Assembly (NCBI RefSeq): GCF_040807025.1
Contig: NC_090947.1
Span: 2,356,001-2,420,000 of the forward strand
Length of the DNA stretch: 64,000 bases
Direction of reading: 5' to 3'
Origin: Struthio camelus
Lineage: Eukaryota > Chordata > Aves > Struthioniformes > Struthionidae
The notes beneath the pieces were generated by a model that was given only the letters and a program-made list of their open reading frames with translations, made no database searches and was not told the DNA's origin. Position 1 is the stretch's first letter. Each line of letters begins with the position of its first letter. Positions 8,906 to 49,762 of the stretch are shown piece after piece. Position numbers and translations under genes: made by a program.

Positions 8906-9488
8906 ATGAAGGAACCTTGTTACAGCTTTGAGCAGGAAGACTCCATTTCTGAATTTCCCTTCTGGGACCAGGCAGATCCTAATACTGAGCTCCAAACGCA
9001 GTTGGATAACTTCCTATTGGACTGCACCTCCCTGGCAAACCAGTCCTCCCCTTGGTCGTCCTTTACTTGCCAGCCCCTGGTGCCTGATGACCCGCTCTCC
9101 CTCCTAGACCTCACCAAAGGAGAGCTCTGGCTGGAGCAGAGTGCTGAACTGGACAGCTCCCCATCCCAGCCAGGGCCCAGCACGCCACCAGCGAGACATC
9201 CCCGGCACATCCCACCTCACCCTTACAAGGTCCAAAGGCACGCTGCAAACATCAGGGAGAGGAAGAGGATGCTCAACATCAACTCTGCCTTTGATGAGCT
9301 CAGGTGCCATGTACCAACTTTCCCCTATGAAAAGGGCCTCTCCAAAATTGATACGCTCCGGCTGGCCATCGCGTACATAGCTCTGCTCAGTGAGATCCTC
9401 CTCTCCGGACACGATCCCAAATCCTACGTGGAGCAGTGCCTCAAGGATGGCTCTCAAGGCCACCTCCAGGCAATCTGGAACACAAGTG
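8906..9488 (+). CDS. PTF1A/FERD3L-family bHLH transcription factor, coding exon 1
   Basis: This exon encodes the first 194 residues and most of a predicted 206-residue protein. The start is the ATG at 8906, with A at -3. The frame is open back to a TAA at 8864 but has no earlier ATG; a GTG at 8894 is not a plausible start. Residues 1-80 are acidic and rich in aromatic residues and Leu, as in an activation region. Residues 81-105 are Pro-rich. The bHLH spans about 112-164: basic region [10 protein letters not shown] with the E-box-contact Glu at 118, helix 1 [10 protein letters not shown], loop VPTFPYEKG, helix 2 [28 protein letters not shown] and VPTF resemble FERD3L, while PYEK, LSK and DTLRLAI resemble PTF1A. 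The exon ends at a good donor (g|gtgagt, 9489). Family members are nuclear, pair with E-proteins and bind E-boxes, acting in neural and pancreatic fate. The role of this copy is not known to me. Confidence 0.88.
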
Positions 9489-10904
9489 GTGAGTGCTTGA
9501 GGGGTTTTATTTTTGGGAATCACAGCAATGTTTTGCATTGCCAATAGGAGTGGATCAGCCAAACTGCTTTCGGACATTCAGCTATCACATTCACACATGG
9601 CAAAAGAGTGTGGCTGAGTGAATGCTTCAATGAAAAAAATGCAAACTTTTCATTTAAAATTTTAACGTCTAATTTACTTAACAAATGAACTTTTTGTGGT
9701 CGTAGGAATGATTCCTTTTTTGAAACAAGACTAAAGATTTTGTTTATTCTCAGGATGTGTTTTCAGAGGTTTTTCTAATTCTGTGCAAAGTAGTTGTTTT
9801 ATAATGCCAGCTGATGAAGCCTCTAGAGATTTTCTTTAGTTTTAGCATGTACCTGACTGAGAAAATTCCTAGCTTTTAGCACAAACATAATCCAATTTCT
9901 TAAATGTGGGCACGTGTTGAACATGTTGCTCAGAGATGTTACAGTTCAGCATTGAGAATCAGGCTACAGAAGCTATTGCATTCAAATTTCAGATTTATTT
10001 CAAAGTATACGAGAGCAAATGTGTATTTGCAATTTACATTTTTATATTATTAGTTATATTTTAAAGTGGAGGATTGTTAATTCTGTTTTCTGTTTCACTT
10101 GTAAATAATTCTGATTTATGTAGGTTTGAACTTTGGGTTTCTTTCCAGCAGACTAAGTCTCTGCATCAGTCCAATATATAGTGAAGATGGGAAATTTCCC
10201 AAGTGCCCAAGTAACACGGGACCTCAAGTTTCAGATAGAAAATGGCAGATCTTTAAAAGGCTTGTGCACCACTTAGCAGTGCAGGGAGGAGCAGAGCGGG
10301 ATTGTCAGTAGTCCCCTGGCACTTCTTTGCACTGTTAGGTACTTAAAACCTTTTCTAAATCTGCCCTTTTGCAGTTTACGTTCCTTTGGATTTTATCAGT
10401 TTTGGAAGTCTATCAGTGAAGCATAAGTAGAGAAAAGTCACTGCAAAAGAAAATTCCCCTTTCATTTTGCAGAACATTGTCAAAGGGACAGAGTCTGCAG
10501 GGAAAAAACAATCAGTTTACTTTAAAGGAAAAGTTAATTAAGTCTTTTTCTCCTTTCCTATTTTTTTCCATCAGCTACACAACTGGGAAAATGAGTCCTG
10601 CTCTACCACTGATCACACCTCTCTTGCGTACAGAGAACAATTGTATTTTACTTTTCAGCTGTCTCCACCTTTAATGAATAACCAAGTTTTAGAACAACAG
10701 AAATGGCTCTCATAGGTATCACCTCTTTTCAGGTTTCAAGTTGACTAATATTTCTGAAGAGTTCCACTTAGAAAGAACTAAATGAATGAGGGTGCTTTTC
10801 TGGAGAGGCTGAATAGTTGATACGTTAAACTCTAATTTAAATGTATTTAAATTAGTGTAATATGTCTTTATTTTGTTTTCCTTTCTGCCTTCTGTTCTGT
10901 GCAG
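9489..10904 (+). other. Intron of the PTF1A/FERD3L-type gene (phase 1)
   Basis: The 1416-nt intron begins with GTGAGT and ends with a pyrimidine-rich tract and TGTGCAG. If it were not removed, the frame would read 20 more codons to a TAG at 9545, giving an unrelated tail. It is AT-rich and carries a perfect 10-bp inverted repeat (10832-10855) about 50 nt before the acceptor. No other coding sequence is evident inside. Confidence 0.75.
10832..10855. repeat. Perfect 10-bp inverted repeat near the exon 2 acceptor
   Basis: CTAATTTAAA, the four bases TGTA, then TTTAAATTAG form a perfect hairpin-capable inverted repeat within the intron, ending 49 nt before exon 2. It overlaps the zone where a branch point (CTAAT- or TTAAT-like) would be expected. 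It is AT-only apart from its outermost base pair and the loop, so chance is possible. Confidence 0.6.
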
Positions 10905-10942
10905 ATCTGACAGCCCGCCTGTCCTGGGTAAAGTGGGATTAA
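10905..10942 (+). CDS. PTF1A/FERD3L-family bHLH gene, coding exon 2 (C-terminus)
   Basis: After the acceptor tttctgccttctgttctgtgcag, shown here by its end CTTCTGTTCTGTGCAG, a phase-1 join to base 9488 gives DLTARLSWVKWD and then TAA at 10940-10942. Only 12 residues, one of them split by the intron, come from this exon. Its LSW motif recalls the HSLSW motif at the start of PTF1A's C-terminal region, which as I recall also lies just past the intron in PTF1A. PTF1A's second box, with the VWTP motif that contacts RBPJ, has no clear match, although a second Trp is present. The splice is predicted from motif quality, frame and motif likeness; RNA data are not available here. Confidence 0.72.
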
Positions 10943-11214
10943 GAGGTACCCAAAAGAAAGAAGAGAGATATTTAAAGGCAGCATATTGTGAAACCTGATG
11001 ACAAAACTGCTGGGTACCGGCTGTTAAATTCTCAGTACTGCAAGCAAAAACATGGCACTTAAAACTTCATTTACTGGCACTGCTCACTTACTCTCTGCAC
11101 ACCCAGCCTCTTTCATTAATTCATTGCTGATTAGGGCCTTCTGCTTCTCTCTTTTTCCTAGTATCTCACACATTCATAGCCTGCTCTTGCATGAAAATCA
11201 ATAACCAGATTAAA

Positions 11215-11220
11215 AATAAA
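11215..11220 (+). terminator. Candidate polyadenylation signal of the PTF1A/FERD3L-type gene
   Basis: This is the first AATAAA after the stop codon at 10940-10942. It would give a 3' UTR of roughly 290 nt. T/G-containing sequence (CTTTTTGAG, GTTTTGAG) follows within 60 nt, as expected for the downstream element. Confidence 0.5.
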
Positions 11221-11239
11221 CGCCATTACAATTGTAACA

Positions 11240-14200
11240 ACAACTTTTTGAGCAACAAGTTTTGAGCGTCCTGATCCACTGAGATGAATGAGAATAGAGC
11301 GTCCAAAGCTTGTTTCCGATGCAGCAAAAAAAAAACTTATGCATGATCACAAGAAAAAAACTAAGCGCTGTCACACTAATTGCTTGGCTTAAGACTTCCA
11401 AGGCAATAACTGTAAAAGTCACCAGTGATTTAGAACACAGACCATGAAAGGTCTGATTTTCACAAGGTGAGACACAGGTCTTTCTGTCTGTCTCCCTCCA
11501 AAGTTTCTCAGGCCGAGCTCCCAGTAGGACAGCCTTTTCAAGATCCGAGTCCAAAGTGTTTGGGCTACAAGCATCAAAAGGCCAATTACTGCTAGTACCT
11601 GGGTACCATCTCCTTGAAGCTCCTTTCATACCTCAGCCTAAATTTTCATGCAAAGATAGTAGCTTGCTTTTGACGTTTTTACAATAATGTTGCTCCCTTC
11701 TGGTTTGAGAGTTTGAGGAAGAGCCAGTGACGCGATGTTGCTCCAGCAACAGTCAGGAAGGCTTTGCTAAAACTGTACAACACAAAATGCCCCACGCATT
11801 CCCCTCAAAACAGACAGGCAAGGCTATATGCTCGCATTTGGTAAATGTTTACCAGATAGTGGTTTCCAAAGCATAACTATCCTATTCTGCAGCCCAGGGT
11901 ATTAAGGATTTTCATATTACCAAAAATAAAATCACAAAGAAAAGCCTAGAGCTGTTTCTTGATTTTGCATGATAGCTCTCCCATACCTTACCTGAGCATG
12001 CACTAAAGCTAACATTACATTTATCTGTTACCTGCATTTCCCCACCCTTTCAGTCCCATATTGCAAAGGCTTTAAATCAATTTGGGGTGTAAAGGAGCAC
12101 CATCATACACCTCACGCATTTCTACAATGCCCTGCTAGCATACTTTGAGATCTGAAACTGTTCTGCCTTGATGTACTTTATCACAGTATTTCTTAACAGG
12201 TAAAATGTTACTGCTAGATAAAAGAAAATGTATTTATTTTTAATGTACTGATTAGTTCTCCTAATAATTTTGATCTCTACTAGGAAAATCATATCAGCAA
12301 CTGGGGTTTGGCTCTGGCACAACTCTGATAGTTTTTGGAGGATCAAGGATGTACACAGGCATTTGAGGGGAAGTTGGAAGGAACTTTTTCTTTTCAGTTT
12401 TCCTGCCAGAATAAAAGGGGGAACGCAACATTATATTTCAATTAACTTAGAATAAAACATTTCATTGCAAACTTTTCACCCTCTCTGCTTTTCCACTCAC
12501 TTAAGACATTTGGACAAATTTCTACAGGAAACAGTGCCTGAAAAAGTGAAAATTCTAACAGCAATAAAAATATCTGAAAATGCAGAATTTTACTTTTACC
12601 TACTTCTCCATTTGTCTTGGCTTAAGTTTTTTTTAATTTTACTTGAATACGCGAAACATTTCAACCAACAAGAATCTCTATTTCTCTTTTAAAATATGAG
12701 ATCAATAATGCTTCCAAATATGTCCCTCCCTTTTGCTGGAAGGTCAGCCTTGTCCTGCAAGCACAGAGTTAGCTGGGAGATCAGGGCACATGAGCAAGGT
12801 TCCCGTTTCTATCATATCTGCATGACTTGGAGCACTTCACTGATATACTGATCCGCTCTCCTGTTGCTCCTTTGTTTGCCTAACACTTTCTCCAACCAAC
12901 GAATGCCTTATTGTGTGGTTGGGCAATGCCTAGCACACTAGGACCCACTGGGGACCTCCAGCTGGACTGAAGTGCTAATAACGTTTAAGCTACCTGTATT
13001 TTACCTGCAGTGGTAAAGCGCTCTGGGTGAGGCTGCACAATCTGTGTATTGTATCAGTGCAGCACTTCTGGTGCTTTGCTTGACCTTTTGGATGTGAGGC
13101 CATCCCCGTTGTGTCCCGGCAAGACTTAGGTCTATGTGATTACCTTACTTCAACTCACCTGGCAGTCTGAGCTTGCAAGGACTCAGCCATGAAGAAGGTC
13201 AGAGGCACATTAGAGCGCTAGTGACTCAGCTACCCTTTCACATGAAAGCTACATGAGGTGATTGACCAGCCCACATACATTGAGAGGCCCTACACAAGAC
13301 CAGGAGAATAAGTGACAGGCATGGGGTGACAAAACCAGAGGATAAATCCTCTGTGAAACTTAATATCATCCACTCAACACTCTCTCTGGGAAACAGACAG
13401 CAAGTACATGCTACAGCAACATAACTGGCAGTAATGTGGGACCCCAGTGAACTTCTCTGCCAGGAGAGGGCTTTGGGAGGGTGTTTGATCTCCACATTGT
13501 CCTCCTCCTGGCCTACAGCTACTGAGGAATGTCCTCTGCGCTCATGCTAAACAACCAGAAAAACAATACAATCCAAGCTGGCCTGTCAGTGAAATTGAGC
13601 CAGGAGACAGCTTTTCCTAGGAGAGCGCACACTGTGAGAACCAGAGCAGGCCATCGCTCTGATAGAGACTGGCCTAGATCTTTACCTCAGGAAGTATGCT
13701 TTTATAAGACTGCAAACTCAACCTCTCAACCTTAAATAGGAGGAAAATAAAAAGAGCCTATCTCCATCTCTTCCTGTCATAGCTCGTTGCAATCTTTCAA
13801 ATTTACAGGACAGCACACTTGTGAAACAAACTTTGCTTTTTTACCCAATGAGCTCATAAAAATAAATAAGAGGCTAGTACCTTCTCTATAGACTAGCCTA
13901 AACTGTTAATTCTCCAGTTACTCACTGATTTGCTAATTTGATAATTACTAATTCATGTGCTTATGAGCAAAATAGTTACCTAATCAACAGTGAAAGTGCT
14001 CATCCTTCCTCCTCCATCATGATGCAGGCATCCCCTGAACTGCACAGGGGAGCACAAGAGCCTCGCAGTCCAGCTGCTGGCGGATCCACTTTAAAAGCTA
14101 TTTGGGTGAGCTGATGCATTTGTACTTTCTAGCTAGGAAGTTTGGTCTATACCATCCCTATTCGTTGTTCCAGTTACTGGGTAAGAATTTACTTAATTCT

Positions 14201-17200
14201 AACGAGTTTTGGTCTTATCAGATGTTAAGAAGTGTTATTGTCAGGTGTTATTTATAAAACTGCAAGGGGAGCAGATCTCATTCTTTTTTGGTCTTTAGTA
14301 TCTGCTGTACGTGTTGCTCTTGTTTTAGTCTAAGAGCGCTCCTCCCAGGATGCATCAGGTCTTAGCATAAGCTGTGTGCTAAGCCTAAAGCTTGAGCAGG
14401 AGTTCAGTGAAAAGTCACACTTTCCAGAGGGACTGCCCGGCCCCAGCACCCTGTGTAAAGGAGCATAGCACACACCTAAGAGCAAGCCCCTCCAGCACTC
14501 TCCATCCTTCCCACCTGCTCTGGCAACAGTGGTCCTCTGGGCATATGAGCATTACTGAACACACAGGTTGGCAGCGATGGGTGGTCCAGGATGGCTTGAT
14601 CTTTGAGTCCAGGGAGCCAAACCATTTGCATGGCACCTAAAGGAAATGAAATCACCCAGCCCCTTGCCTAAGCGTCCCTCCTCTTGGCCCTCTAGCACAC
14701 ATAGGATCTGCTGTTGTATTGCTCTCTCCCTTGCGGGGTTAAGGCAAGCTCTATCTCTCAAGCAAGCTGATCACTGGGACCACAGCCATCCTCCAAGGGC
14801 TTAGAAACCCCTGTCACAGGCTCAGGTACATGCTTAGTGACTGCAGGACCCATGTTCTCACTGCAATGTGGAAAAGCAGGAATAGCCACATGTCCTTTTT
14901 CCAAAGCCAGACAAACCCTTCAATGGCAGGGCAAAGATAACAGGCAGCCTGGGTGCCACAGCCCCCAGTGCCCTTATCCAAAGGAAGAGGTTTCAGCAGC
15001 CCAAGCCCTGATATCCACTCATCTCCTCATTCTAGTTGCCAGCCTGAAGGTCTGCATCAAGGGAACATGCGAAAGCCTGCATGTCGCCTTCTCCCAGGCT
15101 GGCTTTACTACCCTGCATCTGTGAAAATGGCACCATCTGGAAGAGGAGGGCAGAACTAAGCCTGCTATTTAGAAAGCATCAGAGTAGATCCAACAGGACT
15201 GTGTTTGAGTTCTCATCTGGATGTATATTTCTCCATCGGAGGTAACATTATTCTAAGGTCCTTACTGATGGCAACAGGGACAGGTGACTCCTCCCTCCAG
15301 AAGGCTTTCAGAGAGGACTGTAGCAGATCCCACTGGTTGCACACCATAGTCAGTAGGCACTCATAACAACCTCTCTGGGTGTTGTCATACCTGGTGGTGG
15401 AATAAACCCTACTTGGGAGCACATCTGCCCTGCAAGGTCCTTCACACTGAATAATTTTAGGTGCCCCAAATCCCTGGCTCCAGATTTCTCCCAATGCAAT
15501 AGTATCCCACCAGACTATGTATTGCTTTTCTTTTCAGTATGGCACTCAGAGGTCCAGGGTGGATACAAGATAATAATGCCCTGTTATGAAACAAACATTT
15601 GCTGCAGGCACCTGGATGGGAGCAGAAATCTCTTTGCTTCAGTCCAAAAACCCTGACAAATAGTTCCTCTGAAGCAAACTGGGTGTGTGAAGTAGCATCA
15701 GGAAAGCATGCTCATATAAAGGTCAGGCAGTCTCTCAGGTTCAGGAACTACTTGGCTGTGGATGGACAACTAATCTGGGGAGTGCATAAGCACCAAAGGT
15801 GTCCTAGCAATAAAAGCAAGAAGAAGTGTCCTGGAACAAAGATTTTCCTCAGTGTGGGAACTCCAGCTGAGACTAGCTCTAGGTGTTGGCTAAACTGATT
15901 TCAGAGCTGAAGTCTTCCTTTGAGATGCAGACTCACATTGCTGATGCTCCATGCTGCAACAGTAATGTTAGGAAGGGCAGAAAAACCTGCTGAGCTTTCT
16001 GCAGCCTAGTTTGATTGACTCCACCATCGAGCTCCTGAAAGGCCTGTGGTCTGTATGCTGGTCAGCTCTGAGAAACACCCTGCTATAAAAGGCACTCCTA
16101 CCTATCACTGCTGCTGTCAAAGAATTATTGCACAAAGCATGACTTTGAAGAACAGGCTGCTGGAATTTGATGATGACTCTAAGCTCAGGAAAACTGTAGC
16201 CAATAAATCCTGCAGCAGGATATGCAGGGATTGGGGTTTGGGATGGAGTCAAAACCAGAAATAAAAATATTCCTTTCGGGAGTTAAAACTCTAATCCTGG
16301 GCTCTTGAGCCAGTAAGTAGGATTCAATAAATTTATTGCCACCATTAAAACTGATGAAGCTGTTTCTCCTCATGCTCACTCTATTTTGACACCAGTATCG
16401 TTCCATTGCCTTCAGTAGAGCCACATTTCATTTACTCTGGCTAGCGGGGACAGCTTGTCTCTCTCCGTCCTTCCTGAGCTACCTGGAGTCTGTCAGGGTG
16501 TTAGAGCCGACATATTAGCCTAAACAGGCTAAACCATGTTTGGAAGGTGTCTTGATAAACCATTTGGGTGCAACTGACTGCTACTTTCACCAAACCAGCT
16601 TAACTGGTGAATGCATAATACAATCAAACCAACTTGTAATGTGTCACCTTTTCAGCCTCACTGATGACTCCATTCATTTGCGATGAATAAAAGGAAATGG
16701 AGAGGGTATCAGCACTCTTGTCTGAAGGAAGCCAAGCCAGTGCTAGGGCCTTCTTCCTACTGAGCAAATTCCTCTAAAGCCTTGGCTCTTCAGGGAATTT
16801 TTCCCTGGACAGCCCTTCCTGAATAGCCCCAGGCACATTTATTCTGAAAGAAACCTCCTTTTTCTGTACGAATTTCTGCCCCTGAAAGGGCTTTATAAGG
16901 CAGGAAGCTACATGAGGAGCAATTATTTCCGTGCTTTACATTTTCATACCAGCTTAACAGAGAAAAATTGCTGTGTGCAGACATGCTCCATGTCCACCCA
17001 TCTCCCTTCCTGCCAGTTCTGGCGCATCCCCTGTGTCGTGCTTGATAGAAGTTTGCCCCGTTTTCAGGTCTCCAGTCAATGGGCTGTTCCCCTGACTGGC
17101 AGGGCTGGCAATGCTCTGTCAGGGAAAAATAAAGTGAATATCAGAAGTAGTTCCATTTCTTCATCTCTCCTCCAGGACTTTGAAATTTTACACTAAGAAC

Positions 17201-20000
17201 AGCAATTATAGACTTCCCATAACCTATATACATCCTATTATACACAGATGGAACCTAATTGTACAGCTGCCCATACAGAGTAGAGCACACCCCAGCACAG
17301 ATCAAGATTTTAAGAAGATGAAGTCCTATAGGAGGCACCTTAGTCCACCCGTAGGTACCCACATCAACTTTCAAAGCAGCTCTTTAACCTCCCTGGGATT
17401 AGATTCAGGCTCCCCCTTCCCAGTGTTGGGAAGGGCAGTACAGATAAGCTCTGGCCTTTCCTTGTCCTCTGTGAAGCACAGGGATCCTCTCACCAGAAAT
17501 TCAATGGCCAAACTTCTTATGGAAGGCAGCCAGGAGGGGTAGAAAAATCGTCCCCTCCTATTGCATCTGAGGACCAGGTCAGAGGCCCATCAACAACACA
17601 AGAATCGTTCACTTGAAACACACTCCTTGCTTCCAGCTCACCTGGGTCCTTGCCAAGAAAAACAGGAATGATTTGTTACACCTTCCTTCCCCCAGAATTA
17701 AACTACTGACCCTCTCTGAAACAGTATACCATGGGTCTCCTTCACCAACCTGGAAGGTCTGGAACAAAAGAAATCACATCCCTATTATAAAGGAAGAAGT
17801 TCTTCTGAGAATACATTGGTAGTTTCTTTAAAGGACAAAACCAAGGCCAAAGGCACTTCTTTTTTTTTTAATCCTTTTTGCTACAGACCCACAGCAGCAG
17901 GCTTCCGTTCCAGGATTCCTACTATGGCAACATGGAAAAAGGACTTCCGTGTTTCACCTGAAACAAGACTGGCCAAAGAAATGGGCAATATTGCTGCTTT
18001 TTTGTTGCCGGAGCTTGGCCACGGAAGGCCTCATGATTCACAAGCTGCTCAACTTGTGGTATTCAAGACTTCAGTATTGAAGAGAGGTAGGCCAGCCTTC
18101 TAGAAACCCAAGACCCTGGTTTGGAGGGGGACCCTGTTAGGGCCACTCCCATATTGCCTGTAAAGAATTTGGACACTTACCATGGTGCTCTTTGATTCTG
18201 TAGTTGAATGAGATGAAATTTATCAGAACGGGGACTGCAGAAAGGAGGCTAGACCCAAACAGCAAAGCGACGTAGAGGCAACAGCTGAGAGCAAGGCAAG
18301 ATTTTGTTACGAAGACAGACTTTGTTATAAGAGATAGAAATCTCTTAGAATGAAGAGGCTGCTGAACTGCACAACGACATTTATCTCATTTCAATAGGTA
18401 GCCATGGTTTCATGCAGAAGAGATGCCCTGGTTTTAGCTGCACATCTGGAAAATAGGGCCCCTATCAAAACCTCATTCCTGATGGATGAGAGGAAATGGC
18501 CTTACACTGGCTTTGTACATAGTCCTGCACATAATCCTACTGGACTTCATGGCTATCTCGCATTGCTGGTGTAAGATTTGCAAAGACCTGCCATGGTGGC
18601 TGGTTCCATTTTGCATACGGACAACAATCTTTGAAGTCAGTACACTGCTCAATGGCTGTCATCACAATGACAGATCACCTCAGGCTGCAGTTGTCTCCAC
18701 ACACACAACCATACACAATACTTACACTGCTAAATCTGTTTAGGAGGAGGAAGAGGCCTAACTGCAAGGACTGGATGTGTTAAAAATCCACCCTGAGCCA
18801 AACAACACACGTTATGTCTTCACACAAATTTCTTTCTGGATGCTTAGCATTGGCTGGTCAGGAAAACACTGTTTTCCCTCTAAATTACTAATGGGAACAT
18901 TTGTTCCCTCAGGACAACGGCGGTCAACACAGGAGCTCCCAAGTAGTCTTTTCTTCATTGCCACAAGGAAGAATAAAGCATCTCTGTACCTCTCATGCTA
19001 AAACCCCATAGCTCTGAGAGTACTACCACCATGGTCTGCCCTGGAACCTACGTACATGTAGGGTGACAGCTGAAGCCGGCTCAAGTGCAAAGAATTTTAT
19101 TCCTTTCCCCTGGACAGCCAGAACTGCTTGCAATTCCTATTTCCTCTCTGGCCCCACTGGCCACATTCTCGTCCCAGCCTTTATGTTATTCACATGACTG
19201 GTTCTTCATCATGAAGAGTTCATATTGCTCAGGACTTCCTGGGCTTTAGGCCACGCTTTCGCTGTGCTAAGCATACAGTGTAAAGGCATGGGATATGGCC
19301 CTTCAAGACTGCCTGAATAAGGCAAAGCAGGAGCAGATTACAATAACCTGAGAATTTCTTACAGGTACTGTGGTCCTGCGGTGCCTGGATATGCTTTGGA
19401 AGATATTTCACTCTTACATTTGACTTTGTAAGAGCCTGTTCCCTTTGCATGGCCATAGGGCAGCCTGGTGGGGGTCCACTCCTTGATCAAAGTAGGACCC
19501 ACGTTTACAGCAGGACTCTGCCTGCAGGAATGCCTTGAAGCCAGGCAGTCAGTCCTAGGGTTTCTACAAGTAGGAAAGGAGGCAAAGAGGCAGTCTGTTT
19601 GAGAGGAAGTTAGATATAAATAGCCAGTATCCTGAAAGCCCTGTGGAAGTCCCCTTATGACAGTCCAAGATATTATCCTCCTTCCCAAATGGGTACCCTC
19701 AAAAAAATTCAGGACTAGGAACCCAGGATACAGCTGTAGGGGTTGCAAGCATACCCTGACCTTTGGGAAGAGCCTCCCAAGCCACATCAGCTCCTTCTGT
19801 GGGAACAAAGCGCAATTACAATCACTGCATCTAATTTTAGCTGACTCCCACTCCCATCCAGTCTGTTTGCTGAAGCCTGAATGCATTTGAACAGGGAAAC
19901 ACTAGAGCCAACATGATTCCAATCTCGAAGATGATCTCTTACCAGGGGAGGGGAAGTGGGGGGTGGGGAGGAGAACTGGACCATGTTTTGTGCTAGCAAC
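11240..20000. other. Non-coding intergenic interval, first part
   Basis: No supported gene. Open frames of 60-140 codons occur on both strands, but none shows a domain and many overlap one another. One well-ordered MIR-type remnant lies at about 12770-13005. The 14-20 kb part is somewhat more GC-rich and has more chance open frames, including one of 175 codons at 19359-19886 on the minus strand with no recognisable motif. Confidence 0.6.
12770..13005 (+). mobile_element. Amniote MIR-type SINE remnant, near full length
   Basis: Ordered blocks are visible: a TGCATGACTTGGAGCACTTC block like 'tgacttggggcaagtcactt', a linker, then CAATGCCTAGCACACTAGGA, GACCTCCAGC and GTGCTAATAA. The last three resemble 'cagtgcctagcacaatggggcc...tcggttggggcctctaggtgctactgtaata'. 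Repeats with this 3' end are widespread in turtles and crocodilians. Confidence 0.6.
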
Positions 20001-20056
20001 CAAAGCCTGTGGAGAGTGAGGGTGTTTGTGCGGATGAAAATCCAGCTGCAGGCACT

Positions 20057-20068
20057 GCCCTCTCGTGG
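20057..20068 (-). promoter_or_regulatory. CTCF-like motif, reverse orientation
   Basis: GCCCTCTCGTGG matches the reverse complement of the CTCF core CCASYAGRKGGC at 11 of 12 positions. Such a short match can occur by chance, so occupancy is unproven. It lies 9 kb past the first bHLH gene and 29 kb before TWIST2. Confidence 0.35.
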
Positions 20069-22936: not shown

Positions 22937-22956
22937 CCCCCCCCCCCAAAAAAAAA
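22937..22956. repeat. C-run followed by A-run
   Basis: Eleven C followed by nine A form a simple mononucleotide tract. No function is suggested. Confidence 0.85.
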
Positions 22957-38000: not shown

Positions 38001-38093
38001 TCAATAGAGAATGCAGTGGAACCAACAGTAAACTTCATCTTAGTCAAAAGAGCAAAAGAGAAGGAAATGAAACATCATAGTAGTATTGATGCC

Positions 38094-38109
38094 AAAAAAA
38101 AAAAAAAAA
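38094..38109. repeat. A-run (16 bases)
   Basis: An uninterrupted A mononucleotide tract, with no flanking element recognised. Confidence 0.85.
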
Positions 38110-38228
38110 TAACAAAGCTCAATAGATAATGACAAAGCTGGGGGAGGTGCAGGCTGAGGACAGTTACACTTTTTATCTCTCCTCTTTCAGCAATTAAATG
38201 CAAGTTAAAAGAACTCTGAGCAAAAATA

Positions 38229-38248
38229 CACACACACACACACACACA
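38229..38248. repeat. CA dinucleotide microsatellite
   Basis: About ten uninterrupted CA units. A likely polymorphic marker, with no gene nearby. Confidence 0.9.
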
Positions 38249-41200
38249 AATCCTTGCAGTCCACTTTGCTGTGGTGCCCTTCCTCATGGCAAACCCTACA
38301 AGTGTTTTTTCTCAGCACTGAAGCAGAGAGCACAACCCTACACTGATACAGTTTTAATTTAAGGACTGAATAACATGGAAGTTAGAGCACAGCTGCTGCC
38401 CAGATCACTTCCTGAATTGGGGCTGCTCCTGGAAAGGATTTGAGCACGTGCATCATCCCCTTAACTTCAACACAATGACTTTCATGTTTCGAGGTTGACC
38501 ATAGAGGATGTCATTCTCTCCTGCAGAGGCCAAGATGTGCCCCAGCATGGCAGAGTGTACTGGTGCACCCAGCCTTGCAATGCATCTTACAGCTTCACCG
38601 AAAGGAACAATTCACGTACGCATTTCTCATCTGAGGTGCTGAAGTTAGGACGTGGGCATCTAGGATGGAAAACGAGAGCCCAGTTTCTTGGAGTTCAGCT
38701 GGAGAATCATTTCCCACCATCCAGTCCAAACACAGCCAGGCTCAAGATCATCCTGAGCAAGTTGACCCTGCACAGTGGAGGATTCCAGAGACACAATGGA
38801 GCAAGGCATCAGTGGGAGCTATGAAACAGAAAGAATATCTGCCTCCTGGAGGCAGCAGGCCTTGGGGGGCAAGAGGTAATATATTTGCTACCTCACCAAA
38901 ACATGTGTCTTCCCTGACACTACAAATACAAACCCATAGACACTCCCTAATGCTTTGCAGGAATGCTCTTATTGTGCCTTTGAGGGGTACAGCTGTTTCC
39001 CTGATAATTTCGTTTCCAATGCTTCAGCAGGCTTCAGCTACTACATGTTCCTTACAACAGCTTTCATGTCTATACAGTAGCGTGTTTACAACCAGACCTA
39101 GGTCAAGAGGGTTTGAGAGGTGCTTCGAGATACCCTAAAAGACTATATGGTCTACACAAACAGAGATCATTACTCTTGAGAAAACAACCACTTCGTTGCT
39201 CCGTTTCGTAGCAACAGTCCAAAACTAATGTTAATGTTTTATGACTTTCTTTGGTTGCTTTTTTTTTCAAATTCTACAAACCTTAAGTTTTGAGAGATTG
39301 CTTGTTTGGGTTGGGCCTTTTTCACCCAATTGCTTTTCAAAGAAATGATGGGGCTTTCCTACTTTTTCTCCCCAGATCTTAATAGGAATGTCAAGCCTAG
39401 TTTCCCCTGGACTTGCTGACGGTCCCAGAAGTGGAACCTGAGCTTTTAAAGTCCAGCTGAGTCTTTAACAAAACTATCTTTTCTCCTCAAAGTTTATTCA
39501 GGTGCTTGAGTTAAACAGGTGTTAGTCAAGACAAAGAAAAGGCAGAAGTTTTAATTAGGCTAGGAAAAATAATTTCCCTCTCAGCTCAGCCTCTTTGGTT
39601 GAATGTCTCCTCTGATGCTGTAAGTGTAGCTAGTCAGTGATCTCCCCCTGCACCCCTAAAGAATTCAACTTTTCGGCATCAAATTAAATAACAAAATTTA
39701 AAAAAATCAGCTGATAATTAAGCAATTTGATCTGGAGGTGCCAGCCCATTGCTGGAGCAGAATTCAAAGGGAAGGCACTGTGGCTTTCTGTGTCTACTCC
39801 AATTGTGGACAGAAAACCCCAGACACAGCAAAACCCCTCCTGCTCAGCTGTCAAGGTGTGTAAGGGATGTCCATAGAGGGAAACAGGGGCAGAAGGTAGC
39901 TACAGTACCTGGAGTCACAAGTAAACCTAAACCGAAATACGAGTAGGGAAAGGGCTCAGAGTTAGGGTGCTTGGTTTTCCAAAAGAAATTACATTTTCCT
40001 AGGAACGTTGACATGTTTCATGAAACATTCTATTACGAAAAAAAATCCGTTTTCTCTCAAGAATTAATTCTGGCAGGTTTTTATTTATTTACTTGGTGAG
40101 AAGGTCACCAGGCATCCAGGGGGTTCTCTATGGTGATACCCTTTCCTTCTTCTACACCATTTAAATATGTAAGAGCAGGAAATGAAGGATCTCTTCCACC
40201 TCACTTTATTTGGCATTTGATAACCCAAGGAATCTTCAGCAGATCACACCCCTCTGCTAAGACGCTAAGCCATTAAAGACATGACACAGCATCGCTGACC
40301 TCCACAGAGTGTCAGCCACTGCTCTCCTGGGGCTTTGGCTAGGCCCATGTTTTTCAAACAAAAAGCAATAAGCAGGCTGGGGGCTGGGCTGGTATATTTT
40401 GTCTTCCTGCTGTGGAAATGTCCCTAATACCCAAAGGTGCATAGGGAGCACAGAGAAATGCCAGTGGCAAAGAACTTAAAAACAACTAAAATGTGGTTAA
40501 AAAAGATGAATAAGATATGAAGAGTGGGTATAATTTTTGAGAATTGTTTCCAGGAAAGGGAAGACAAATGATTAGCATTTGTTTTTTTCCATCAAAGCAC
40601 AGGAGAACAGCTGTGATTTGGCTCATAACCAGCCCTGTAGCTTTTGAAGTTTTAGGCAGAAGGTGTGAGTCTGTCTTTTATGTGGGTGAATATTAAGGGA
40701 GGTTTAGTCCAGCATCTAGAGCTGGCCCAGCACTGGCAACGACCCAGGAAGTAGAGCCCTTCCCTTTGGTACCAGAAACCAAAGTCCTGTCCCTAGGATG
40801 CCACTACCAGGTTGATAGAGAGTGGGCATATTTCGATGGCAGGACTTTCCATAACCAGGAACCATGATGAATGACCTGTCACTCAGCAGTGACTCATCTG
40901 GCTCATCAACAAGTGCCGCTAATGATCTGTCCAGTCTCCCTTAACCGGAAGACACATGCAACATGATACATGGCCACAAATATGACTTGAAGGCTGGAAG
41001 AAATGACTGGAGAATTACGGTTTGGTGGGACAAGGAGTGAAGACAGACATTGCCTGTTTTTATCTGGACAAAAGAAGATTTGGGGTTTGCAAGCTATGAG
41101 TAGCTCAGGGAGCCGTGAAATCCTAGGTTTCAACTGCTCCCACCCTTTTCTCCTTGAAAATTCAGGCTTCCTTACTTCAGAAACCCTAACAAGTTTCTCT

Positions 41201-42025
41201 TTGTTTTGCCCTAACATTTGAAATTGGGATTTTCCAAATTCTGACGGTTCCAGAAACCCTCATAGGCTCCTGTGCAGCTTTTCCCGCGGCTGTACTGGGG
41301 CCATCTGCAAACACACCCAGCTCCTGGGAGCGGTTCACCTCCTCCAGGCAGAGCTATCAAATAGCCATCTAAGTTCAAGTTCATCATTTAGGCTTCCCAA
41401 CATCCCACCTTCCAAACTGCTAGATAGTGTACCTTGATGATTAAATTTTACAAGGAGCCCCAATGATTACATTTTAGTTGGCTGATGTTAGGGACGATGA
41501 ATCCCTCTTGCTACATGCACATCCATCAGGTGATAAACCCAGGCAAAGTTGGCTCTAGACCTGCCTTTCTGCATGTTGTGCAATTTTTTTGATTTCTTCT
41601 CTTCAGTTATGAGACTTTTCTCAAGACCCTCTGGACAGCAGCAAGGAGACATGCCACTGAAGCCAGGCATCCCCCTGACACAGCCTTCCAAGTGGTTTAA
41701 CTGCCAAAGTAAATGGAGAAAGGTAATTTTTAACATGCTTTGAGAAGGATTCTTACATAATACTGCTGGGCCTATGAAGAAAATCATTTATTTCAATGCC
41801 AATACAATTACAACAGGGCACTGCTTTTCAGTACATTGTTGCTATCATTTTACCTCACCAAACAGTTTACTACAAGCTGATTTTGCTCTCAGGAGTCCTG
41901 GTAAATCCTCAAAAATGCTAAAATTCAGAAACAACAGCAACAGTACTTTGGACTTTTTCGTGGCGGGCTTTCCAGTCATGTGAATTCACAGTAATTGTGG
42001 GTTTCAAGAAGTGTAAAAAGAGTAA

Positions 42026-42044
42026 TTGCACACACTGTGTGCAA
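42026..42044. repeat. Perfect 9-bp palindrome with one-base centre
   Basis: TTGCACACACTGTGTGCAA reads the same on both strands apart from its centre base. It could be a dimeric protein-binding site or chance; no known motif is claimed. Confidence 0.75.
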
Positions 42045-43329
42045 TGTGCGCTGTGCTCAAGAAAACATGACCAAACCCATAGCTAGATCCAAACCAAGAG
42101 GCAGACAAAGGGGCAGGGTGTTTTGCAAAGGCTACGTCTGACTAGCAGCAATAGTTCTCATCCTAGGACTCTGCCGACACCCTTGCGGGGGCTATGGAAG
42201 GCAGCTAAAACAAGTGCGCCGGGGCCTTAAATCCGCTCTACAGGATCAGTGCTTTCATTACATCAGAGGTTCTAGGGCTTCACAGATTAAAAAAACAGAG
42301 TAGCGCTGGCCTGAGGAAGTCAGCCTCTGCAGACCTTTTTTGTAATCCCAGAGAGAGGATCCACTGTATCCGGAGAGGACAGACTCTCTCTTCATGGACT
42401 GTACAGTGAGATGAGAAAAGTCAGTTTACACTGGCAATAGCCTTGCTGAATCCTTCTCAGGCAACAGTCTGCACCTGCACAGCTAAAGTCAACCAAAGTT
42501 TGTTCTCAGGAGCAAGTCCTGGCTCCTCAGCAGAAGTATTTCTCCATCTTCTGAAGAACAAGCTATCAACCAGCACTAAAAACTGGAAGCCAGACTCGAG
42601 GTTCTTCTGAATATACTTGACTTGAACTGGGTGCTGTAATCCAAAAAATGGACAGGAGCCTGACCAACAGTGCCTGAACACCTGTGGTTGGTTTTGGATT
42701 CTCCTTGATGTTGGTGAGAAGTGCTTCCTACACAACTTAATGAGGTTGAAGAGGGGGGAGAAAAGTCAAGGATAACAGAATACTTTGCATGTTTTGATTT
42801 TCCAGTTCATGAAATAATATTTTCATTTTTCATAGCCCAGGTTTTAAGCTACAGTTACTAGTTCTGTAGCCGCAATTAATATTTCACTTTCCAAAAAGAG
42901 GAAAAAATCTGTCTTCCCTGTGGATTCCCAGGGAGACATTCTGCTTCGATCTGCAATTAGTGGTGGCCTTGGGTAAATGATCTAAAATAGAAATGTTATT
43001 TCTGGAATCATGATAGCTACTACATTTTACTCCCCCCAAAACTGGTTCTACTTTTTGCTTTCCATGATCATTAAAAATAGAATCCACAATTGCAATGCCA
43101 CTGCATTTTGGTTTCTTCCTACGGCAGACACGCACTATCTTTCCAACGCTACTGACATGGGAAATTACATGGATTTCTAATCTTGCCAACAATCAACACT
43201 AGACTTGAAACACTGCACTAGGCATTCAAGGCAGAACTGTATCTGGTCTAAATTATCTTCATTCTATTGATGACGGAGCTTGGACTACTGAGAGCTGTGA
43301 ACTGGTCCTCCGTCTGACAGATTAATGTC

Positions 43330-43522
43330 CGAGTGCCTGATCCAAAACCTGATGAAGTCACTGAAGATCTCGCTTCTTATTTCGGCAGGATTTCGATCAG
43401 AAATTTAGGCCTGGATTTAGCATATGCTTAAACTTAAACACCTGCCTATGTCCCAAGGAAGTCAATGTGAATCAAGTGCACATCTCACTTGCAATGCATG
43501 CTTAAATGCTTTGCAGAGTCTC
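43330..43522 (+). mobile_element. Sauropsid interspersed repeat remnant, copy B
   Basis: Blocks in order are GAGTGCCTGATCCAAAACCT, GAAGTCACTGAAG, GCATATGCTTAAACTTAAAC, AAGGAAGTCAATGTG and GCATGCTTAAATGCTTTGCA. The series matches, with decay, a repeat familiar from reptile and bird DNA ('tgatccaaagccc', 'aagtcaatggg', 'gcatatgcttaactttaagca', 'gcttaagtgctttgctga'). It shares its 3' block with the shorter copy near 7155-7246, and is the longer and clearer copy. Confidence 0.6.
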
Positions 43523-44786
43523 AGCGTAGGTTAGAAAAGCCATGAATTACACAACATATTAACAATCTAACTCACCACAGTATATTTTGAAAGTTATTTA
43601 TAATTTATATTGGTCACTATTACACTGCTGACAGTCTGACCTAGCATTGTACATAGCAAATAAAGCAAGCACTGAATAACGTACATTCTGAGAGAAGGAA
43701 ACAGAAAAGGCAAGTGTTTGGGAGACAAGGGGACTGAGCATCTGTGTGTAACATGCATCTCCCAACATTTCGTTTTTGGTCATTCTTTTGTATTGCAGGA
43801 GGAATGGGAGGGCCAAATTATGATTTTGAAAGCCTCATTCTAGAAGCAGAAAAAGAAAAAAACAGCCTTTGCAAGTCATATGCTATGTCAAAGCTTGGAT
43901 GGAGCTTCTGGCTTGGTAAAGGAGATGAACAAAGGGCCTCCAGGGTTTTTTTCCATGAAGAAAGAGATGTCCACCAGGACAATCTCCAAGTCTTTCCCTT
44001 CCCTGTTTTCTCTCATTCTCTTACAATGTCTTCCCTTAAAAAGTCCTAACTTACAGCATCCTCATGCACAAAGTGAGGAGGCCAAATGGAGCAATCAAAC
44101 CAAGTATCAACCCTAGGTACCAGCAGAGAGCTGCTACCTTTCTCCCTATGGGACTGGCATCTGCACGCTCAGCTGCCCAAGCAAGACCTTTTCAAATGAA
44201 AAGCGCACCTTGACCTTGACTGCATTTGTTGTCAGGATAAGCAAGTAATAGGGTGCACTGTCCCCATTTCAGCCTCTCCTTTGCTTGTGTACGCTGATAT
44301 GCTGCTTCAAGGGTTTATAACTGAAAAAGCAGAAAAGAAGAGCGGGCACATCAGCTGGTAACAGTTTAGAAACAGATGTACATTCCTGCACAAAACTCCG
44401 ACATTAGCATATCCCATTACTTTGAAACTGTGCTCTGCTCCAAATATCTTATCCCCAAAGCCTTGTTCTCCTTACCTCCTGCTCCTCACTTGCTGCTTCT
44501 TTGCTTTTGATTATGAACTTGTCATGCATGGTCTGTGCTTAGGGAAATGTCCATCCACCATGTCTGGCTGTTGCTGCAGTGCAACACAAAGGATAAAGAA
44601 ATAAAGTCCACAGAGAGGATGTTCAGCACTAGACATGGCTACTTTTGCAAAGACAGCATGTGAAAGATGCCCACACCAGATCAGAACTGGTGGCTGCTAC
44701 ACAATCAATGAGGAATTATCCCAGGAGGCCCTTTTCCTAGATCACATAGAAGGCAAGGAAAAAAGTCAATATAACTAGACCCAGCC

Positions 44787-44834
44787 ATAGTAGAGGCCAT
44801 TCAGTGCTGGATAGTAGAGGCCATTCAATGCTGG
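44787..44834 (+). repeat. 24-bp tandem duplication
   Basis: The unit ATAGTAGAGGCCATTCAGTG plus CTGG occurs twice head to tail (44787-44810 and 44811-44834), differing at one base (G/A). It is a recent local duplication by replication slippage, since only one mismatch has accrued. Confidence 0.9.
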
Positions 44835-47029
44835 ATGCACTTTGCAGCTAGGGTTATTCTGAAGGCAGAAATGATGCTTTTCTCTATACCAATAGGTAGT
44901 GAGGACAAGGAAGGCAGAAAGCACATCTTTCAGCTTGCTCTAAAGATTAACATCCCCGAACAAAGGGGAGTTGGAAGAGCAGTCAGTGTTGGGATCCCCA
45001 GTGCTTTGAAATATCATCCCCCTTACTGCCAGGGCACCAAACCTTTCCCTACCTCATACTGGAGACTAAGGGGAAGGGCAGCAGGAGGCAGACACCCAGA
45101 TGGTCTCCTCTATAGTTCTCTGCTAGTGCAGATGTCCCTTCCAGTGGGACAACTGGACCACAGACTTCAAACTGAGAACAATCCCTTCCCCCAAAGTCCA
45201 GTCTATGATGTTCTATTGTATTCTTCTAATTTTTAGGAGCATGATAATGGTAATGGAACAGTAGCCACATCATAATTAATGTCATAAGACATTTTTAAAA
45301 GTGGCATTAAACTTCCACCAAAACAGTCTATTTTTTTTATCACAGTTGTTATTTCATAACTTCTTTCCTGCCCTGCTGTGTAATAGTAGGGATGCACTCA
45401 TCGTCCTCCTGTGCAAGCAGCTCAGAGGAGCTAGGGAACAAGGTACCTTTGTACCACGTGTCCCCACCACAGACCTTTCAAGCTCCCTCTTCCTTCAGGA
45501 GAACCAGATCACATTTCACCAGGGTCTGCGCACAAGTAGACTGAGCCTTTGATCTGCTCCAAGGGAAGATATTTGCAGTATTGTCAACACTGTACTTAGC
45601 TCTGGCACTAAGTACTGCTAGGGGACTCCACGGCCGTAAAGTGTACACAGATACACAGCAGCCCTGGAGCAATTCTAGTTGGAGCTTGGGTTATAGACTT
45701 TATAATTATGACACAGACTAGTTTCACTATAAATTTCCTCTAATGAAGTCTGCCTGAAACTAAAAAGCTTTGCGCATTTAGAGTTTATGCACAGCAACAG
45801 TCCCCTTAGGGAGAAATTCTGCCGTGCTTTGTCATGCAAACAGTCCTTCAGGCTGTTCGCAGAAGCCAGGCAGAGGGCTGGGGCTACTCATTCATTTATT
45901 TAATACAGCCCTAGCATGCACAGGACCAGGAGGAGAACGTGGCCCAACTTCACCAGAGAGGCACAGCACTCCCTCTGCTGTGAGTGCCCACTCCTCCTTC
46001 ACACACTGCAGAATTGGAGGAGGCACGTCAAAGAGCGCGAGGAGCAATAATAGCTTGGATGCTTGCCCAGGACGGCACAGCACGGTCAGTTTATGAAACC
46101 AGTTATCTCCAGCCCATCTGAGAGCCTGCGACTGGGCCCTCCCCACAGGACTATGCTGGGCAGGTGGCTGCCTTTCAGCAGCACCGCTTCAGTAAGATAA
46201 CCAGAAGCTGCACATCTCCTACTGCACCTGTCTGTGGCCATATACGTATGAGATGGGCCTGGGGACGGCCACAAACAGTATGAGCCCCGTGGCAAAACAG
46301 CTTGTCCCAGCTGAGAGTTGGGCATTTTGAGACAGATCCACACGGTCTGCCCCCAAGACTCTTCTATGCACCACCACTGAAAGGACCCAGTACTGCCCCA
46401 TGGAAGCACCTGACTCCCATACCCCACCAAGAAACGGTGGCCACTGCAAAGCAAAAGGCCTTCTCCAGAAAGCCTTTTACAGGAGTCCTTAGTGTCTTTG
46501 GGTAATACGCACTATGCACTGGAATCGACCGCAGCGCTCAACCCAGCACAGTGGATTTTAGCAGCCCAAATATCCTCTCTTGCACAACAATTCTGTGCAA
46601 ATCCATTGCAGTTTGCTGCCGTAAATCTGGTGCAAGCAAGCAGAGGACCCAGTCCCACTAATAGCTAACCTGTTTGCTCAGAAAATCATGCTCTTTGCGG
46701 TTGGAAAGCAGAGACTTCCCTCAGATCTTCAGTGCTGGTTTCCCTGGCTCATTGTGCAATGGTTTCTCTTAATCTTGGAAATGATCCCAAGTGCTAAGAA
46801 TAGGAGACTTCTAAAAACTTCGAGCACAAAACTGAATACAACTTATGAAGGCTGTTTTGCCCTCCGGGGTGCAGTTTTACATTGGCATCACTAAATTGAC
46901 AGCAGTTTATTTTGCTTCCAGGATGGGACAAGAGCCATTATCATCATTTAGACTTCTTTTCTCACCCTGCCTTGCCTTTCCGGAGCCTAGCAATCACCTA
47001 AGCCACACTAGCATAACGTTCAAAATTAT

Positions 47030-47085
47030 TTCAGTGGAGTCACTTCAGCATCAGATCAGCCCCAAATTAAATCTGGACAACCACT
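47030..47085 (+). mobile_element. Possible sauropsid repeat fragment
   Basis: TTTCAGTGGAGTCACTTCAG followed by CATCAGATCAGCCCC recalls the 'ttcagtggagttacaccagc...gatcagaatctggccc' repeat type of reptile and bird DNA. Weak. Confidence 0.3.
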
Positions 47086-47800
47086 GCAGCATGAGAAAAC
47101 GCTTTCTAATTTCCCAGTGTAAATTCCGTTTGCCTTAACTAACCTGAGGACGATATTCTCCCATCGGGTCCGTGGAGCCGCCACAGCACCCTGCACTTGC
47201 GGACCCCCAGATTTCTGCATGCTCCTGCAGACACAAAGTTACTGCCAACCCCTCGCCCCAGCTGTGAGCCCCCGGCCCTCCTGGAAGCCTAACTCTCTCG
47301 GAAACCTGGCTTTGAGGTCCAAGCGCGAGTGCGAGGCACCCGTCCCGTCCGACTCGGCGGGGTCTTAAATTGGATTAAAAATCTATTTGCAGAACTGCTT
47401 TGCCTTCCGACTTCTGTGCTGCACCTGAAAACCTTTCCTTTTGAAAGCAAACACAGGCTCTCCCCAGGGGCTGCCTGGGGAAGTCTTTCCACTATAAACA
47501 TTACCTACCAGTAGTAGAGTCAGCCCCAGGCAAGCCAAAATTCCTTCTCTTACCAAAGAACACTTTCCAATCAAACCAGACATTATTTTTTCCATTAATG
47601 AGTGTTGATGCCTACTGGAAAACTTTGCAATGAAATCTACTCCAAACTAATTCTTCTGATTCAATATCTACATTTCGTAGGGTTTCTTTTGTCTTTTGTC
47701 TTTTTTTAGCTATATTTTATTTTTCTGAACCTTATCGAAAACCTGATCTTTGCTGCTCAGGAATGCGTCTGTTCCTGCAATTTGGGCTTTAAATGAAATC

Positions 47801-47880
47801 AGAGGACCAAATCTGATTTTACTTTGCATTAAGTCCACGGAAGCAAGCAGAGTTTTCCCACATTTTCCCTGGTGTGATAG
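47801..47880 (-). mobile_element. Sauropsid repeat remnant
   Basis: GGACCAAATCTGATTTTACT, then ATTAAGTCCACGGAAGCAAG, then CCCTGGTGTGATAG follow the order of a repeat that reads 'ggccaaattctgatttcagtta...gtaaatccagagtaactccactgaagtcaatgg...cactggtgtaactgag'. About 80 bp is readable. The strand given is arbitrary because the element is close to palindromic. Confidence 0.5.
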
Positions 47881-48189
47881 CGAGGAAAAAATAGATCCCT
47901 CATCTTCTGTTTGATACATCAGAAACCTCGGAACTACCACCACAATCTTCATGCCCCAGAATACCACAATTTCAATGGTATAGATCAGAGGAAGAGGTGA
48001 CCTCCTACCCATCTCGGGTCTTGCTCCCCAAAAAGCACTATTAGTGTGTAAGGGGGAAAAACGTGGGAAGAAAAATGGCAGGTGGATGGGCTATGTGGCC
48101 AGCACTGCTTCCTGGGGCACATTCGCCAGGGTTTTATAGAAACTATTCGCTGCTTTCAGGATGATTCATATTTCGGGTTCTACTGGGTT

Positions 48190-48860
48190 TGCCTGGGAGG
48201 GTCCTTCCACGTCCCTTTGTCCCCTGCCAGTGGAAACATTGCCTGCTGCCCCCAAACCTCCACCTTCCCCACAGCGCCTTGCGCCCCGGGGATCTCCTGC
48301 CAGTCCAAGGTCACCTCACCATACCTGGCAGGGGGCAGATCGCCACCCCGTCTCCGGATGGCACCTCCAGGGCGGCACGGGGGAGGTCGTAGCTGGGTGA
48401 GCAGGGTGTTGCAAGGGGAAGCGACGAGCAAGAGCACTTTGCAAAGGGCAGTTTGAAAAGGGCAGCCTGCCACGGGCAGTTTACAACGCCTCCAGCCCAG
48501 GAACCCCAGCGCTGCAGCAGGGCAAAAGCAAAAGCTGATGCCTTCTCCTCGCTCCGGGCGCATGCAAGAGCCCAGGGAAAAGCCGAGCTGTAGCATGCAC
48601 TGTACTTGGCAGCCTGATTCAGGCTAGGTACCTCTGCAGCGCAGCAACGGAGCTGGGAGTTACCCCTTGGCCGGATGGGACCCCGCTCCTGGAGCCGTGC
48701 AGAAGGGCTGGGAGGCGCTTCGCAAAGCCCGTAAGCGCTCCACCAACAAACCAGCACCCCGAAAGCCCAGGCAGGGGGTTGCTCTGGAGGGATCCCTTCC
48801 CCAGTGGCAAACTTGAATCTATGGGGAAGGGAGAGACGAGGGGCTGGGGGAAGGGGGAGG
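48190..48860. other. CpG-rich region upstream of TWIST2
   Basis: This stretch is GC-rich with frequent CpG and unlike the AT-rich sequence before it. It forms the upstream shore of the TWIST2 CpG island. The 186-codon minus-strand open frame inside it (48311-48871) is a by-product of high GC content, which removes stop codons; it shows no known domain. Confidence 0.6.
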
Positions 48861-48972
48861 GATGGTTGCAAGCTATCTTTTATTCGAGGTGCATTCCCAA
48901 GATTTTAGTTAAGTGTAACATAAAACTGTGAAAGTTTAGCAGGGGAAAAGCTTTCCTCCCACTGACCTGGCC

Positions 48973-49023
48973 AGCCAATCAGAAGGGAGCCCCACACCTC
49001 CCTCACTTCTGACAACTATTTAG
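48973..49023 (+). promoter_or_regulatory. Candidate TWIST2 core promoter (CCAAT box plus TATA-like element)
   Basis: AGCCAATCAG (around 48973-48982) is a near-ideal CCAAT/NF-Y box. CTATTTAG lies at 49016-49023, about 40 bp on, the usual distance between a CCAAT box and a TATA-like element. Transcription would then start near 49045-49050, giving a leader of about 235 nt. A second TATA-like word, TATTTAA at 49206-49212, would give a leader of only about 40 nt; both could be used. Confidence 0.5.
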
Positions 49024-49279
49024 CAACTGAGCTCAGCTAAAGTTTCCAAAAAGTTAGAATAACTTCCTCTCTCCAAGACCTCAATTTTTGCACAACCCCG
49101 TCCTTGAAATAAGAGCCCTTCAAGCAACCTGGAAAACGTTTGGTCAGCAAAAAAAAAAAAAACCCTCCTGTTTTTCCAAAGGATCTGTCTCAGGAATTTA
49201 AAGCATATTTAAGACACACACACTCACATAACATAAGGAGGGGGGGAAAGTCTCTTCCCCTCCCCTTCTTGCAGAAAGC

Positions 49280-49762
49280 ATGGAAGAAAGTTCCAGTTCT
49301 CCTGTTTCCCCTGTGGATAGCTTGGGGACCAGTGAAGAGGAGCTGGAAAGGCAGCCAAAGAGATTTGGCAGGAAGAGAAGATACAGTAAGAAATCCAGCG
49401 AAGATGGCAGCCCCAACCCAGGGAAGAGGGGGAAAAAGTCTAGTCCCAGCTCCCAATCTTATGAAGAACTCCAGAGCCAGAGGATCCTGGCCAATGTCAG
49501 AGAGAGGCAGAGGACTCAGTCGCTCAATGAAGCTTTTGCAGCCCTGAGGAAAATCATCCCCACTTTGCCCTCTGACAAACTCAGTAAAATCCAGACCCTC
49601 AAGCTTGCGGCTAGGTATATAGACTTCCTCTACCAGGTCCTACAGAGCGACGAGATGGACAGTAAGATGACTAGCTGCAGTTATGTGGCTCATGAGAGGC
49701 TGAGTTATGCCTTTTCAGTGTGGAGGATGGAAGGAGCGTGGTCCATGTCGGCCTCACACTAG
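49280..49762 (+). CDS. TWIST2: TWIST2 (Dermo-1) bHLH transcription factor
   Basis: This is a complete 160-residue protein from ATG at 49280 to TAG at 49760-49762. The N-terminus [20 protein letters not shown] and the C-terminus [15 protein letters not shown] identify TWIST2. The absence of TWIST1's glycine-rich tracts separates it from TWIST1. Basic clusters RFGRKRR (28-34) and KRGKK (49-53) serve as nuclear localisation signals. The bHLH spans about 67-118 (basic region [12 protein letters not shown] with the E-box Glu at 75; helix 2 [20 protein letters not shown]). The Twist box is at 141-160. TWIST2 dimerises with E-proteins, binds E-boxes, and restrains MYOD1 and RUNX2 in dermal, muscle and bone progenitors. 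The reading frame has no defects. As in mammals, the coding region lies in one exon, followed by a 3'-UTR intron. The start is supported by conserved N-terminal sequence. Confidence 0.98.

Follow-up and report, generated by a model that had tools for sequence, protein, structure and literature searches.

A gene of the PTF1A/FERD3L family of basic helix-loop-helix (bHLH) transcription factors lies upstream of TWIST2 in Struthio camelus, and it probably represents (at a probability of about 0.58) an ancient third vertebrate lineage of this family, most likely of the Fer2 type, an identity that we infer. The gene was found in a stretch of 64,000 nucleotides, called the window below (RefSeq assembly GCF_040807025.1, contig NC_090947.1, positions 2,356,001 to 2,420,000 of the forward strand; part of contig C6 in our numbering). 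An earlier reading of the letters of this DNA, the sequence-only reading, had described the gene as the TWIST2-side partner of FERD3L.

A predicted two-exon bHLH gene upstream of TWIST2

The two coding parts of the gene (Table 1) are predicted to encode a protein of 206 residues whose C-terminal end is IWNTSDLTARLSWVKWD. Pfam HLH (PF00010) matched the frame opened by the ATG at 8906 with 68.7 bits, against a cut-off of 20.7. When the whole genome (1.45 Gb, 262 contigs) was searched with the HLH domain, 125 matches were obtained at E<=10, from which 30 loci were fetched, and the new gene ranked 13th of the 125 with 71.7 bits (E 7.2e-17), far above chance. Its HLH is complete and its basic region (ANIRERKRM) intact, as in class II bHLH proteins. 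The sequence-only reading had given the gene a single exon ending at 9547. This frame would run into an intron, since position 9488 is followed by a consensus donor and position 10905 is preceded by an acceptor whose pyrimidine tract is long, making a second exon likely. We conclude that the gene is real and codes for a class II bHLH transcription factor, with two exons as predicted from its splice sites.

TWIST2 follows on the same (+) strand, 38.3 kb separating the predicted stop (10942) from the TWIST2 start. The presence of a PTF1A/FERD3L-family gene and of TWIST2 about 38 kb apart on one strand, as first described, was confirmed by Pfam HLH in both frames. Between them (10950-49200), no Pfam match at E<=0.01 was found in the 20 longest of the 110 stop-to-stop frames of at least 75 residues, and no Rfam family reached its gathering score anywhere in the 64-kb window. 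The statement that no gene stands between the two is borne out for these 20 frames and for Rfam.

Three TWIST-HDAC blocks

We then looked at the position of FERD3L and of the TWIST genes in the genome. FERD3L (C2:35321852, minus strand) lies 17 kb upstream of TWIST1 (C2:35304535), which is also on the minus strand, so that the mirrored layout claimed from mammals is found in this genome too. A third TWIST gene (L025, G000:C28:2541811, minus strand) has a bHLH domain 93-94% identical to those of TWIST2 and TWIST1. This third gene may correspond to the Dermo-1b and Dermo-1c that the chicken bHLH survey places on one scaffold. HDAC domain exons were located at C6:2513590-2528012 (minus), C2:35158646-35199656 (plus) and C28:2516332-2519432 (plus), and each TWIST gene converges on its HDAC gene, at 108 kb for TWIST2 on C6, 105 kb for TWIST1 on C2 and 22 kb for TWIST3 on C28. 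A further HDAC gene is at C25:4685636, with the nearest HLH match almost 2 Mb away. Of the class IIa entries in the PDB, HDAC4 scored best with the C6 exon (80.7 bits; HDAC7 73.7) and HDAC7 with the C28 exon (77.1 bits; HDAC4 71.7), in a comparison that spans 41 residues and in which some HDAC6 entries outscore class IIa entries. From position and sequence, we take the C2 gene to be HDAC9 and the C25 gene to be HDAC5. A SOCS-box exon, presumably of ASB1, lies at C6:2234920 on the plus strand, 130 kb upstream of the new gene and on the same strand. In zebrafish, an hdac7a-related pseudogene adjoins twist3 and hdac4 adjoins twist2, the latter as is the case in human (PMC3426487). Duplication of a TWIST-HDAC block, which the sequence-only reading had proposed, is therefore well supported by three TWIST genes that each converge on an HDAC gene, and by position, strand and block the new gene stands where a duplication partner (ohnologue) of FERD3L would.

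No bHLH gene of the PTF1A/FERD3L family was found near the third TWIST gene, in the 20 kb checked at and upstream of TWIST3. Conserved non-coding sequence was sought by blastn (E<=1e-3) between the window and three regions: 20 kb covering the FERD3L-TWIST1 interval, with the TWIST1 bHLH just outside; the 10 kb above this region; and 20 kb that begin just below the TWIST3 bHLH and extend to its upstream side. Two matches only were obtained, both coding: one between TWIST2 and TWIST3, the other between the new bHLH exon and FERD3L.

Divergence of the bHLH domain

The nearest relative of the new gene in the genome is FERD3L, at 66% over 61 residues. Within the bHLH domain, the new gene is identical to FERD3L at 38 of 55 positions (69%) and to human PTF1A at 37 (67%), while FERD3L and PTF1A share 34 of 55; the PTF1A row in these counts is the human one, since the PTF1A bHLH exon reads N in this assembly. 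For calibration, we aligned this human row with the bHLH domains of 29 fetched loci (all of the 30 but L029), the family labels being assigned by our own recognition and the basic region of HAND1 being incomplete. All 18 within-family paralogue pairs, from 10 families, were 73-96% identical, 17 of them at 83% or above (the exception is ATOH1/ATOH7, 73%), and TWIST1 and TWIST2, which belong to the same two blocks as FERD3L and the new gene, were 96% identical. The highest of 258 between-family pairs reached 71% (NEUROG1/NEUROD2). The 69% between the new gene and FERD3L thus falls outside the range of within-family paralogues. Among 57 aligned sites, 30 were common to all three proteins and seven differed in all three; nine were shared by the new gene and FERD3L only, seven by the new gene and PTF1A only, and four by FERD3L and PTF1A only. 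Because 38/55 is below every one of the 18 within-family pairs, FERD3L and the new gene seem to have separated at a depth typical of different families, with the new gene about equally distant from PTF1A and FERD3L.

Membership of the family itself was seen in two trees. In the first, of 27 rows (26 of the 30 loci, leaving out L015, L021, L024 and L029, plus the human PTF1A), the new gene, FERD3L and PTF1A formed a clade at 96/92, with a long-branch warning that included FERD3L. In the second, of 17 rows, the same clade had 93/91, just under the level that the tool marks with a star.

Intron and C-terminus

PTF1A exon 2 was found on contig C2, at 92% to the human query, and this PTF1A has a phase-1 intron after ...ICHRGT, its exon 2 holding HSLSWTDEKQ. 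The bHLH exon of this locus (L043) is a run of N, so that an HLH survey of this assembly would score PTF1A as absent. The predicted intron of the new gene is likewise of phase 1, after ...AIWNTS, and its exon 2 holds ARLSW. FERD3L, in contrast, is one uninterrupted frame of 190 residues from the first Met which ends nine residues past the bHLH core, with neither intron nor LSW. The new gene therefore differs from FERD3L in its predicted exon structure and in its C-terminal motif. It also differs from a PTF1A orthologue, which would have two tryptophan motifs, C1 and C2, since the predicted protein has the LSW only and stops before any C2 motif. In PTF1A, the tryptophan of the C2 motif, VWTPEDP, is the one that we take to be W298. 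Binding of PTF1A to RBPJ requires W298 (PMC6054649). From the missing counterpart of this tryptophan, the new protein should act as a bHLH/E-protein dimer independent of RBPJ and not as a PTF1-type trimer. By what is known of the family, it would form dimers with E-proteins, bind to E-boxes and direct the specification of a neuronal subtype.

Origin of the gene

We favour an ancient Fer2-type lineage with reciprocal retention because it fits the divergence, the intron and the C-terminus better. Fer2-type genes are reported in flies, planthoppers and Ciona. Before the two early vertebrate genome duplications (2R), a Fer2-type and a Fer3-type gene would probably both have stood upstream of a TWIST gene convergent on a class IIa HDAC gene. 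The block would have been duplicated in 2R, after which TWIST1 would have retained FERD3L, of the Fer3 type, as its neighbour and TWIST2 the Fer2-type gene. Loss of the new gene in mammals is plausible. In the full account, birds retained beside TWIST2 a third gene, of the Fer2 type, that mammals lost; reciprocal retention after 2R divided an ancestral Fer2-Fer3-TWIST-HDAC block; and the gene is the orthologue of the one by which dopaminergic neurons are specified in flies and marked in Ciona. We put the chances of this account at even. The other reading, in line with the partner of FERD3L first proposed, starts from a single FERD3L-type gene doubled in 2R, the new gene being the TWIST2-side copy that evolved fast or kept features lost by FERD3L. 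We consider it possible, and the weaker of the two. The relative position, strand and block of the new gene are those of FERD3L, which is also the closest gene found in the genome, and this part of the earlier proposal stood. The low bHLH identity to FERD3L, set against the 96% between the TWIST genes of the same blocks, and the seven residues, the intron and the LSW motif that the new gene has in common with PTF1A and not with FERD3L speak against a twin.

Several points weigh against the Fer2-type lineage. Both trees put the new gene as sister to FERD3L (90/80 with 27 rows, 87/80 with 17 rows), with long-branch warnings. In the 17-row tree neither alternative pairing, with PTF1A, was rejected by the approximately unbiased (AU) test (p 0.19 for both). 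The trees thus lean weakly towards FERD3L as sister, and so towards the earlier proposal, without deciding; since their rows include no invertebrate, they do not separate a split at 2R from an older one. The alignments, like the trees, are of vertebrate rows, and the scheme needs one assumption more, a Fer2-Fer3 tandem in the ancestor. A value of 69% might also result from rapid change following 2R, the lowest within-family pair (73%) being not far above. No relic of Fer2 or Fer3 was found beside the TWIST gene of the other or beside TWIST3, tblastn hits besides TWIST being at chance level (for TWIST3, E of 2 or more). Finally, the table of a planthopper survey files NlFer2 under PTFb, the family of FERD3L (PMC5126786).

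Other explanations have little room. A decaying pseudogene relic is very unlikely: the gene model is a prediction from genomic DNA, and position 35 of the aligned bHLH stretch is Gly where FERD3L and PTF1A have Arg, but 206 predicted codons are open over two exons, the splice sites are good, the basic region is intact and putative polyadenylation signals follow. Even less probable is a recent lineage-specific copy of PTF1A or FERD3L that came to lie near TWIST2 by chance, for which we found no point in favour. The nearest gene found in the genome is FERD3L, at only 66-69%, and PTF1A is at 67% in the bHLH core; tblastn with the full protein aligned FERD3L in the bHLH only; and chicken too has a PTFb gene on the scaffold of TWIST2, as listed in Table 1 of a survey (PMC2862960). 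We rejected a recent copy on its low identity. Two further identities were dismissed as well: PTF1A itself, as a separate PTF1A exon 2 is present on contig C2, and a misread FERD3L, as a separate FERD3L gene is present there.

Features of the window and of the genome

Table 1. Features located in the window (positions counted from its first base)
Feature	Position	Strand	Basis
Exon 1, coding part, new bHLH gene	8906..9488	+	open frame from ATG 8906; Pfam HLH; donor GTG/GTGAGT after 9488
bHLH domain, new gene	9233..9388 (G000:C6:2365233-2365388)	+	PF00010 genome search
Predicted phase-1 intron, 1416 bases	9489..10904	+	GTGAGT ... pyrimidine tract-CAG; phase as in the PTF1A intron of this genome
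Predicted exon 2, coding part and stop, (D)LTARLSWVKWD*	10905..10942	+	splice sites; LSW motif as in PTF1A exon 2 (HSLSWTDEKQ)
Putative polyadenylation signals ATTAAA/AATAAA	11209..11220	+	about 270 bases 3' of the stop
TWIST2 coding exon, 160 residues	49280..49762	+	Pfam HLH 63.1 bits; TWIST C-terminus at the end; bHLH 52/54 identical to TWIST1 of this genome

In the interval between the two genes, a 24-base unit is repeated 2.1 times with a 96% match at 44787-44836, inside an open frame of 153 residues without Pfam match. Elsewhere in the genome, a third bHLH gene of the paraxis/scleraxis type (L006, G000:C6:39850540, minus) was seen besides those on contigs C18 and C2, and a Scleraxis2 is among the genes of the chicken survey (PMC2862960). 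The large contigs G000:C40 and G000:C41 each had an HLH match, of equal score and frame length, C41 carrying a TAL2-like gene, and may be a large, little-differentiated pair of W and Z as in ratites.

Comparison with known systems

In the part of the literature that is open access, which misses most subscription papers, we found no description of a third vertebrate family member beside TWIST2. Five peptides of the new gene had no match in the text of papers. Searches of viral and bacterial contigs with the new gene and with a three-row alignment confirmed no invertebrate sequence, and phage and plasmid sequences gave no match to the gene.

The gene is nevertheless already partly on record and not wholly new. 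Table 1 of a 2010 chicken bHLH survey lists PTFb XP_001234487.1, assigned to human PTFb (FERD3L), on scaffold NW_001471728.1, which also carries Dermo-1a NP_990010.1, there given as the homologue of human TWIST2; Twist1 and PTFa are placed on NW_001471633.1 (PMC2862960). Because the new gene is the only one of its family found here on the TWIST2 contig, its orthologue in chicken is most likely this entry, which was mistaken for FERD3L; the chicken scaffolds may be long, and a shared one means linkage and not adjacency. The same survey counts three PTFb genes in lancelet, two each in Drosophila and zebrafish, and one each in limpet, chicken, rat and mouse. The single PTFb listed in a Xenopus survey is on a scaffold that carries no Twist1 or Twist2, which is neutral on linkage (PMC3842043).

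Like FERD3L/NATO3 (PTFb, Fer3 type), the closest bHLH to it found in the genome, the new gene has the ANIRERKRM basic region and the VPTF.YEK loop and precedes a TWIST gene on the same strand. FERD3L, unlike the new gene, is a single frame with no C-terminal extension. With PTF1A (PTFa, Fer1 type), the new gene shares the phase-1 intron after the bHLH, the LSW in exon 2 and residues such as H26, P31, K38 and D40 (numbered along the aligned stretch). Contig C2, however, carries PTF1A as a gene of its own, and PTF1A has the VWTPEDP motif, which the new gene does not. A likeness to Fer2 of Drosophila and Ciona (48-related-2) would be expected by the logic of the family. Fer2 sequences presumably come close to the new gene, which is a lead only.

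Published naming in this family differs between papers. The planthopper survey names Fer1, Fer2 and Fer3 as separate families (PMC5126786), the Ciona gene that marks dopaminergic neurons is called fer2 (PMC7596717), and a C. elegans paper gives two vertebrate genes in the family, PTF1A and NATO3 (PMC11703107). Papers on fly Fer2 take PTF1A or Nato3 as its vertebrate counterpart (PMC4207665, PMC8931002), and mouse Nato3 was used as the counterpart of fly Fer2 in work on dopaminergic neurons, while others are said to hold fly Fer3 as the Nato3 homologue (PMC8931002). If the bird gene is a true Fer2, the comparison of mouse Nato3 with fly Fer2 is one between paralogues, and the mammalian line has lost a gene for neuronal identity. 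The association of this bHLH family with TWIST and class IIa HDAC genes would then also be older than the vertebrate genome duplications.

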